A DNA stretch of 64,000 nt, from NCBI RefSeq assembly GCF_021532625.1, contig NZ_JAKGAR010000004.1:1-64000 (forward strand), read 5' to 3'. Under the pieces are notes generated by a model. That model worked only from the letters and a program-made list of their open reading frames with translations. It had not been told where the DNA came from and ran no database searches. The translations under genes were made by a program, and so were the position numbers. This document shows, in pieces, positions 49,544 to 51,951 of this stretch; the first letter of the stretch is position 1; the number at the start of each line of letters is the position of its first letter. This DNA is from Octadecabacter algicola (lineage in GTDB: Bacteria > Pseudomonadota > Alphaproteobacteria > Rhodobacterales > Rhodobacteraceae).

Positions 49544-49896
49544 TTGTGCGGTCCTTGCCTGCCTCGTGTTAAGGGCAATGTAGCAGACAATCGTATCGCT
49601 AATCCACATATTCGTGAACAATCCAGCAACAACTAGGCAAACTGGACACGTTTTCGAAACGTGATTTGGTATGATTGAAATTATATATACTTTATTTTTG
49701 TTGAAAAACAATAACTTAACTGAATTGCCGGCAAAAAGTTAAGAGGATGCAAAATTGCACGATTGCTGTCTAATTCCTGCCCCATTCGAAGTGCAAAAAC
49801 TCCTCATCAAGACGGCAAGCGCATCAACAAGAGGCCGGTGCACAGAGCGAACCGCCTAAGATAGTGAAACTGAGAAAACCCTGAGGAGGGAATACA
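49544..49896. promoter_or_regulatory. Divergent promoter region of transglycosylase and pilins, with nested palindrome
   Basis: 353 AT-rich bases with no gene. At 49715-49743 CTTAACT and its exact complement AGTTAAG flank a central perfect 10-bp palindrome TTGCCGGCAA at 49725-49734. This looks like an operator. Upstream of it are runs such as ATTATATATACTTTATT that may hold promoter elements. GAGGAGG precedes the first pilin ATG. Confidence 0.5.
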
Positions 49897-50097
49897 ATGC
49901 TTAACTTTATTAAAAACTTCCGCAACGACGAAGACGGCGCCGTAACTGTTGACTGGGTTGTTCTGACAGCCGCAATCGTTGGTCTTGGCATCGCAGTTCT
50001 GACATCTGTTGGTGGCGGTACTATGTCTGCTTCCGACACACTGTCCGGCGATCTGGCCACAGTGAATGATCTGGTTCCAGACTTCTCTGCTCTTTAA
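49897..50097 (+). CDS. Flp family pilin 1
   Basis: 66 residues. A prepilin of the Tad pilus: a 14-residue leader ends in DEDG, and the mature part starts AVTVDWVVLTAAIVGLGIAV, the hydrophobic helix that packs in the fibre. The usual Glu5-Tyr6 pair of Flp pilins is Asp5-Trp6 here. The protein is identical to that of pilin 2. A hairpin follows the stop. Confidence 0.92.
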   Translation: MLNFIKNFRNDEDGAVTVDWVVLTAAIVGLGIAVLTSVGGGTMSASDTLSGDLATVNDLVPDFSAL

Positions 50098-50105
50098 TTC
50101 AATTC

Positions 50106-50132
50106 GACCTCGGCCAGTCATTGGCTGAGGTC
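50106..50132 (+). other. 3' hairpin of pilin 1
   Basis: GACCTCGGCCA pairs with TGGCTGAGGTC (11 bp, one wobble) across loop GTCAT. It starts 8 nt after the stop and has no T-run. Likely an mRNA-protecting structure. Confidence 0.75.
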
Positions 50133-50169
50133 ACCCCCCTTATTCAATACACACACGTGGAGACTACAC

Positions 50170-50370
50170 ATGCTTAACTTTATCAAAAACTTCCGCAACG
50201 ACGAAGACGGCGCCGTAACTGTTGACTGGGTTGTTCTGACAGCCGCAATCGTTGGCCTCGGCATCGCAGTTCTGACATCTGTTGGTGGCGGTACTATGTC
50301 TGCTTCCGACACACTGTCCGGCGACTTGGCCACAGTGAATGATCTGGTTCCAGACTTCTCTGCTCTTTAA
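50170..50370 (+). CDS. Flp family pilin 2
   Basis: 66 residues with the same protein as pilin 1, from a copy offset 273 bp that differs only at a few silent bases. It carries the same leader and Asp5-Trp6. A GTGGAGAC ribosome site precedes the ATG. Confidence 0.92.
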   Translation: MLNFIKNFRNDEDGAVTVDWVVLTAAIVGLGIAVLTSVGGGTMSASDTLSGDLATVNDLVPDFSAL

Positions 50371-50377
50371 GCTAATC

Positions 50378-50404
50378 GGGTCTCAGCCTTCCTGGCTGGG
50401 ACCC
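50378..50404 (+). other. 3' hairpin of pilin 2
   Basis: GGGTCTCAGCC pairs with GGCTGGGACCC (11 bp, one wobble) across loop TTCCT, starting 7 nt after the stop. The sequence is unlike the first hairpin, but the build is the same. Confidence 0.75.
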
Positions 50405-50437
50405 AACACGTTCGCCGACATATTACTGGAGACAACT

Positions 50438-50626
50438 ATGTTTAACTATTTCAAAACCTTTCGTGCTGATGAAGACGGCGCAGTTACAGTTGACTGGGTT
50501 GTTTTGACAGCGTGTATCGTTGGCCTCGGAATTGCGGTTTTGACTGTTGTTGGTGAAGGCACCATGGAGCTTAGCCGCAAGCTTAGCTCACAGCTTTCTG
50601 CGCAGACCATCGCGAACTACAACTAA
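50438..50626 (+). CDS. Flp family pilin 3
   Basis: 62 residues, start ATG 50438 with CTGGAGAC upstream. Leader MFNYFKTFRADEDG, then AVTVDWVVLTACIVG. It has a unique Cys in the helix and a more charged C-terminus (MELSRKLSSQLSAQ) than pilins 1 and 2, so it may be a minor pilin. Confidence 0.9.
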   Translation: MFNYFKTFRADEDGAVTVDWVVLTACIVGLGIAVLTVVGEGTMELSRKLSSQLSAQTIANYN

Positions 50627-50648
50627 GTCAGATTTCAAGATTTGAACG

Positions 50649-50675
50649 ACGGGCTGCATCTTTGATGTGGCCCGT
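50649..50675 (+). other. 3' hairpin of pilin 3
   Basis: ACGGGCTGCAT pairs with ATGTGGCCCGT (11 bp, two wobbles) across loop CTTTG, 22 nt after the stop. Confidence 0.7.
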
Positions 50676-50792
50676 TGTCGTCTGCAGCCTACCCGAGCTG
50701 CGCTTTCTACAAACGAACACTGTGTGCTCGTTTTTCTGCCACATTCAATCGCCACAGATATACCAAGTTTATATCTAGCTGAGGAGCTAACA

Positions 50793-50978: not shown

Positions 50979-51093
50979 TCCCCCCCGCGTCGACATGGGT
51001 AAAAAAACAGGTTAAACGAGAAAAACCGTAGCCCACAGACGCGACAACTATGTCGACGTTGGCTTCCACCAGCGAAATCCGGAAGGAAAGACA

Positions 51094-51951
51094 ATGCGAG
51101 CAGTTTTCGGACTTGTCCTTATAGTTGGCATGGGCCTTGCAGGCTTTGCTATCTACATGGTGCAGGGATATTTTGAACAGCAAAATGCAGCCCTTGCACA
51201 ACAACGAGCGGCAAACCAACAAGCCGTTCAGACCGTTAACGTGTATGGGGTTAACCGTGTCATTGAACACGGCGAACAAATCGCCCCTGAAGACGTCATC
51301 ATTATCAAATACGCTGAACCCTTCCTTCCGGAAGGTGTGTTCTTCACTTTAGAAGATCTGTTCCCAGATGGACCCGAAGAAATGCGCGTTGTCACGCGTC
51401 AGCTTGAAGCAAACGAACCTATCCTGGCTGTTAAAGTGACCGAACCAGGTGAAGTGGCCGGTATCACCGCCCTTCTCGCACGTGGTATGCGCGCTTTTGC
51501 AATCGAAGTGGATGTTTCGTCCGGTGTATCCGGGTTCCTTTCTCCTGGTGACCGCGTTGACGTCTATTGGACGGGTCGCGTGGACAACTTTGATGGCGGA
51601 CGTGGCGGCGAAGTAACCAAACTTATCCAAGCGAACATTCCATTGGTCGCAATTGACCAAACCTCGGAAAGCGGCCGTTCAGGTGCAACGATCGCCCGCA
51701 CGGTCACTGTTCAGGTCACACCGGATCAAGTGGCTGCACTGGCGCAAGCCCAAGCCACTGGCAATCTGTCACTGTCTCTTGTGGGTCGTGAAGATGATAC
51801 CGTTGCTGGCGCGATTGAGGTCGACCAAGCCAGCCTGCTGGGACTCGTCGCTCGCGAAGTAGAACCCGAACTGCAAGAGGAAGAAGTCTGCACAATCCGA
51901 CAACGCAACGGAACAGAGGTCGTCGAAATCCCGATCCCTTGTCCAGAATGA
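51094..51951 (+). CDS. cpaB: Flp pilus assembly protein CpaB
   Basis: 285 residues. Periplasmic partner of the outer-membrane secretin. An N-terminal membrane anchor (about 3-20) precedes a SAF-type domain (EHGEQIAPEDVIIIKYAEP) and an RcpC-like domain with GFLSPGDRVDVYWTGR. GGAAGGA lies before the ATG. A strong terminator lies 77 bp past its stop, so the pilin-cpaB unit ends here. Confidence 0.93.
   Translation: MRAVFGLVLIVGMGLAGFAIYMVQGYFEQQNAALAQQRAANQQAVQTVNVYGVNRVIEHGEQIAPEDVIIIKYAEPFLPEGVFFTLEDLFPDGPEEMRVVTRQLEANEPILAVKVTEPGEVAGITALLARGMRAFAIEVDVSSGVSGFLSPGDRVDVYWTGRVDNFDGGRGGEVTKLIQANIPLVAIDQTSESGRSGATIARTVTVQVTPDQVAALAQAQATGNLSLSLVGREDDTVAGAIEVDQASLLGLVAREVEPELQEEEVCTIRQRNGTEVVEIPIPCPE

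Follow-up and report, generated by a model that had tools for sequence, protein, structure and literature searches.

Hairpins between tandem Flp-type pilin genes of an Octadecabacter-group genome: candidate 3'-exonuclease barriers of separate origins

Tad pili contain many pilin subunits per assembly machine, and the pilin and assembly genes lie in one row. How the ratio of pilin to assembly products could be set within such a row is the question raised by a 64,000-nt stretch (the window) of the genome of a marine Octadecabacter-group bacterium (Rhodobacterales), where hairpins H1, H2 and H3 follow three successive pilin genes (Table 1). Four small Flp-type pilin genes, P1 to P4, lie upstream of cpaB/rcpC, after which come genes for a secretin and a type II/IV secretion ATPase. 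The scores of P1 to P4 against Pfam and NCBIfam are below the cut-offs; the genes are named Flp-type because of their common EDGAVTVDWVVLTA core and their position. The proteins of P1 and P2 are identical, with 5/201 nt different between the two genes (49897-50370), and the P2 orthologue in a neighbouring species (genome G005; the window genome is G000) shows 2 nt differences. The spacers downstream of P1 and P2 differ strongly even though the proteins are identical, which suggests gene conversion or strong coding constraint.

Table 1. Pilin genes, first assembly gene and hairpins in the window
Feature	Position	Strand	Basis or characteristics
P1, Flp-type pilin gene, 66 aa	49897..50097	+	ORF
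H1, 11 bp, 5-nt loop, tail ACCCCCCT	50106..50132	+	fold z -3.97; 8 nt past P1 stop
P2, Flp-type pilin gene, 66 aa	50170..50370	+	ORF
H2, 11 bp, 5-nt loop, tail AACACGTT	50378..50404	+	fold z -3.86; 7 nt past P2 stop
P3, Flp-type pilin gene, 62 aa	50438..50626	+	ORF from internal ATG, alignment to other pilins
H3, 15 bp, 3-nt loop	50646..50678	+	fold z -4.23; 19 nt past P3 stop; genus alignment and covariation
Weak second hairpin, 6+3 bp, one mismatch, into TTTTT	50711..50735	+	fold -6.6 kcal/mol; P3-P4 spacer
P4, last and divergent Flp-type pilin gene, 61 aa	50793..50978	+	ORF from internal ATG, alignment to other pilins
cpaB/rcpC, first assembly gene	51094..51951	+	PF16976, E 2.6e-25

The three folds are real and beyond chance, since none of 4000 dinucleotide shuffles of each spacer reached an equal hairpin energy. 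Stems of at least 11 bp arose in 5/4000 shuffles of the H1 spacer, 4/4000 of the H2 spacer and 40/4000 of the H3 spacer. The H1 and H2 spacers, 72 and 67 nt long, fold with -22.8 and -25.1 kcal/mol (z about -4). H1 reads GACCTCGGCCA-GTCAT-TGGCTGAGGTC and H2 GGGTCTCAGCC-TTCCT-GGCTGGGACCC, each with one G.U pair. A first-pass annotation of the window had described three hairpins of identical build, none with a T-run. The description of 11-bp stems with 5-nt loops fits H1 and H2, and the likeness of the three is only approximate because H3 is longer, with 15 bp around a 3-nt loop at 50646-50678; the 11-bp fold with a 5-nt loop placed at 50649-50675 is a mere inner piece of it. H1 and H2 indeed have no T-run, and the tail of H3 (GTTGTCGTC) holds 4 T in 8 nt, yet no run.

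All three hairpins are stable structures between cistrons directly past the upstream gene, as in barriers of the puf/malE type, and like intrinsic terminators they are G+C-rich. None has a U-tract directly past the stem, unlike most relatives of H3. The lack of a uridine tract that goes with puf/malE-type barriers is clear for H1 and H2, and H3 occupies an intermediate place with its T-containing, runless tail. Searches of Rfam gave weak matches only, far below gathering scores. A REP-like or mobile hairpin was ruled out, because neither H1 nor H2 recurs elsewhere in the genome. The genomic background combined the window with sampled stretches totalling 400 kb (464 kb in all, with rough gene calls): 18/119 tandem-gene spacers of 40-250 nt contain a hairpin of -18 kcal/mol or lower, and about 8 of these hairpins are T-poor. 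Three hairpins consecutively are thus unusual, while T-poor intergenic hairpins as such are not rare in this genome.

The comparison with relatives, in which about 150 loci yielded 376 distinct spacers downstream of pilin genes, sets H3 apart from the other two. Of 136 distinct spacers that precede the last pilin gene in Rhodobacterales, the position orthologous to P3-P4, 105 hold a hairpin of -15 kcal/mol or lower, at a median of 23 nt past the stop codon, and 94 of these 105 hairpins have a T-rich tail (at least 4 T in 8 nt). In a sequence-based alignment of H3 with its counterparts in G005 and ten further members of the genus, made with no fitting to structure, the core GGYYGC..GC.GCC is common to all and 99.3% of cells pair; sliding the partner by 1-3 columns lowers pairing to 35-60%. 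Two-sided changes occur at 6/12 pairs. The two-sided cells number 17, against 5.4 +/- 2.4 in shuffles, and 0/500 shuffles equal this count; H3 thus passes the covariation check proposed in the first-pass annotation. Between G000 and G005 the sole change in the stem is G.U to G-C, by which the pair is kept.

The tail after the stem has evolved differently. It is a run of 4-7 T in most aligned relatives, GTTGTCGTC in the window species and GTCGTCGTT in G005, and genomes G008 and G015 are also without a good T-tract. The stem is retained in all four of these T-tract-poor genus members. H3 is, as judged by alignment, the orthologue of an order-wide terminator-like hairpin whose T-tract has been broken up here and in G005, and in the aligned sequences its stem outlives that tract. 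Farther down the same spacer, the weak hairpin at 50711-50735 is unchanged in G005 between diverged flanks (fold -8.4 kcal/mol there), and may be a residual terminator that has taken over termination from H3.

H1 and H2 have a much narrower distribution. H2 and its spacer are identical in G005 and occur in no other of 61 genomes searched, in which H1 was found only in its own genome. The spacers that match the H1 and H2 positions in congeners have no strong hairpin. In several other genus members the same TGGAGACTACAC closes the P1-P2 spacer ahead of the ATG, and the stem past the stop has at most 3-4 bp. G005 lacks exactly the 273-nt unit formed by P1 and H1, and its single copy has the P2 state at all 5 P1/P2 differences. 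The likeness of the congeners' P1-P2 spacer, with its small stem only, and the P2 identity of the G005 copy make the tandem pilin arrangement look older than the large hairpins H1 and H2, and imply that G005 probably lost one pilin copy. H2 is the same in G005, whereas the P3-P4 and P4-cpaB spacers have diverged.

We considered whether H1 and H2 are diverged copies of one hairpin with compensations, and rejected this, as their likeness is not above that of hairpins shuffled from the same pairs (p = 0.10). This bears on the earlier argument that differing sequences with kept pairing imply selection on structure, not sequence. The folds do hold with G.U pairs, but the H1/H2 similarity is at the random level in this permutation; since three neighbours are compared, differing letters and kept pairing alone are no proof of structural selection, and such selection is shown only for H3, with its covariation in the genus. 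Nor is it supported that the three form one set under one selection, as had been supposed: H3 belongs to the order-wide terminator-like family, and H1 and H2 are, from their phylogenetic distribution, additions limited to the window lineage with an origin separate from that of H3.

Spacer length across the order gives a context for these additions. A hairpin is present in 0/45 pilin-pilin spacers shorter than 60 nt and in 122/134 of at least 160 nt, so relatives mostly have short bare spacers or long spacers with a terminator-like hairpin. Where an internal pilin spacer holds a hairpin, the hairpin is T-poor (at most 3 T) in 4/4 cases at spacer lengths of up to 120 nt, two of them H1 and H2, and in 1/35 above 120 nt, the other 34/35 being T-rich (Fisher 6e-5). 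With G000 and G005 removed, T-poor hairpins make up 5/12 in short and 11/135 in long spacers over all pilin-pilin spacers (p 0.004). The association is not significant in last-pilin spacers alone, and T-poor hairpins are not significantly nearer the stop codon than T-rich ones overall (p 0.23). A stronger short-spacer effect (p 8e-7) was discarded, as some stems there contained their T-tract, and the corrected count is used. The T-poverty of short spacers fits hairpins that must not halt a cotranscribed array, with small numbers on the short side. A broader proposal, which we put forward tentatively, is that spacer architecture acts as a dosage switch in Rhodobacterales pilin arrays: long spacers with terminators would make separate transcription units, and short ones with stabilising U-less hairpins, which several genera would have acquired independently, would keep cotranscribed duplicate pilins above the assembly genes.

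The explanation that we favour, with moderate confidence, is that the pilin array is cotranscribed and that H1, H2 and H3 act in it as puf/malE-type barriers to 3' exonucleases, H3 being a weakened terminator. The array would be transcribed right through, and RNase cuts in the downstream part would create new 3' ends. From these a 3'-to-5' exonuclease, e.g. PNPase, would degrade back to a stem and presumably stall, which would shield the pilin message upstream; the level of pilin messages would then rise against that of cpaB and the assembly genes. H1 and H2 would be barriers only, because they have no U-tract and their spacers leave little room for a new promoter. H3 derives from the relatives' terminator-like hairpin; its broken U-tract should lower termination, and the barrier would be kept. 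What supports the barrier reading is that the stems fold stably, that compensatory changes preserve the H3 stem across the genus, that relatives carry T-tracts, and that hairpins in short internal spacers are T-poor. Counting against it, most of the genus lacks comparable hairpins between its duplicate pilin genes, about 8/119 tandem spacers of the genome hold a U-less hairpin, which is thus no rarity there, and the short-spacer association comes from few cases, two being H1 and H2 themselves. The first-pass suggestion that the hairpins protect pilin mRNA ends or tune pilin levels against cpaB is thereby partly upheld: it is still the best reading and gains from the H3 covariation, and its premise of a single set is not supported.

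The main rival, chiefly for H3, is partial termination, in which the three hairpins would act as attenuators that lower transcription stepwise from the first pilin to cpaB, perhaps with Rho. This agrees with the terminator-like form of the H3 family, whose tails are T-rich in most relatives, with the 4 T in 8 nt left in H3, with the weak hairpin and TTTTT that come next at 50711-50735, and with the C-rich tail of H1. Against it, the relatives' long inter-pilin spacers bear U-tracts, indicating that the clade uses U-tracts when terminating, and termination at H1 and H2 is argued against because they have none where U-tracts are the rule in the order (94/105). Moreover, H1 and H2 stand between identical or similar pilin genes, where loss of transcription would cut pilin itself. 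Overall we consider attenuation rather unlikely. Less probable still is that H1 and H2 have no selected role, being remnants of duplication or insertion in the lineage, and that H3 is a decaying terminator. Their restriction to one or two genomes, their random mutual similarity and the break-up of the H3 T-tract in both G000 and G005 would be expected on this account. Drift, however, is unlikely to place two different perfect 11-bp stems at equal distance from two stop codons. Also against this account, G005 has kept H2 without change although its P3-P4 and P4-cpaB spacers diverged, and the only change between the two H3 stems keeps its pair. A role as inverted repeats in DNA, either protein sites or recombination sites of the pilin array, would suit their place next to the 273-nt unit, which two species carry in different copy numbers. 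We regard it as very improbable: the genome has no second copy of H1 or H2, the G.U pairs of every stem are mismatches in a DNA palindrome, and homology between the near-identical pilin genes accounts for the loss of a copy.

Precedents for such barriers exist, also within the order. In E. coli, protection from exonucleases is known to be marked by U-less hairpins that follow the stable portion of an operon; the barrier to 3'-to-5' exonuclease has been demonstrated for malE, is widespread in that species, and such hairpins may succeed one another in an operon (PMC5927463). Stabilising structures act together with RNase E to adjust puf mRNA segments in Rhodobacter (PMC6238624), and for R. sphaeroides, structures that stop PNPase have been proposed as the explanation of a set of 3' ends (PMC7866481). 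Like H1 to H3, the elements of puf in Rhodobacter and of malE-malF and menBCE in E. coli are stable U-less stems within an operon just past a gene whose product is needed in excess (PMC5927463, PMC6238624), and menBCE has several per operon, as does the pilin array. The pilin hairpins differ in lying in a tad array, one per pilin cistron. The relatives' H3 orthologues resemble an intrinsic terminator or leaky attenuator past a major subunit gene, with a G+C-rich stem, a T-rich tail and their median distance from the stop, from which H3 departs by its broken T-tract and H1 and H2 by having none. A stem-loop likewise governs the amount of pilus message in the pil1 operon of Streptococcus gallolyticus (PMC3894217); that one is upstream of the operon, needs a T run and is under the control of a leader peptide containing variable repeats, features that the Octadecabacter array does not show. 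The open papers searched contain no description of hairpin barriers for tad loci, and nothing relevant on terminators in flp/tad loci or between pilA and cpaB. The candidate barriers are thus a known kind of element, the principle being established by puf and malE, for which no earlier description in tad loci was found in open papers. A covarying, order-wide hairpin past pilin genes, modified by loss of its U-tract or joined by added U-less stems, offers a concrete place where the ratio of pilin to assembly products could be set.

Other elements were seen around the array. Many congeners (L011, L013, L014, L018, L051) have a second conserved hairpin, GAATGCGGC-ACAAAGTG-GCCGCATTC, between the last pilin gene and cpaB; it has a T-rich tail in most and is absent from the window species. 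In the P4-cpaB spacer of the window, at 50987-51059, CGTCGACAT and ATGTCGACG form a pair of inverted arms with about 55 nt between them, which are not kept in G005. A conserved block, GATGCAAAATTGCACGATTGCTGTCTAATTCCTGCCCCATTC at 49746-49788, lies 137 nt upstream of the first pilin ATG and recurs 128-140 nt upstream of the first pilin gene in 5 other genus members and at 3 loci of other genera. TGCAANNTTGCA has no occurrence in 400 kb of the window genome, and of the 17-nt core the whole genome contains a single exact copy. The block probably serves the pilin array as its promoter or as a regulator site.
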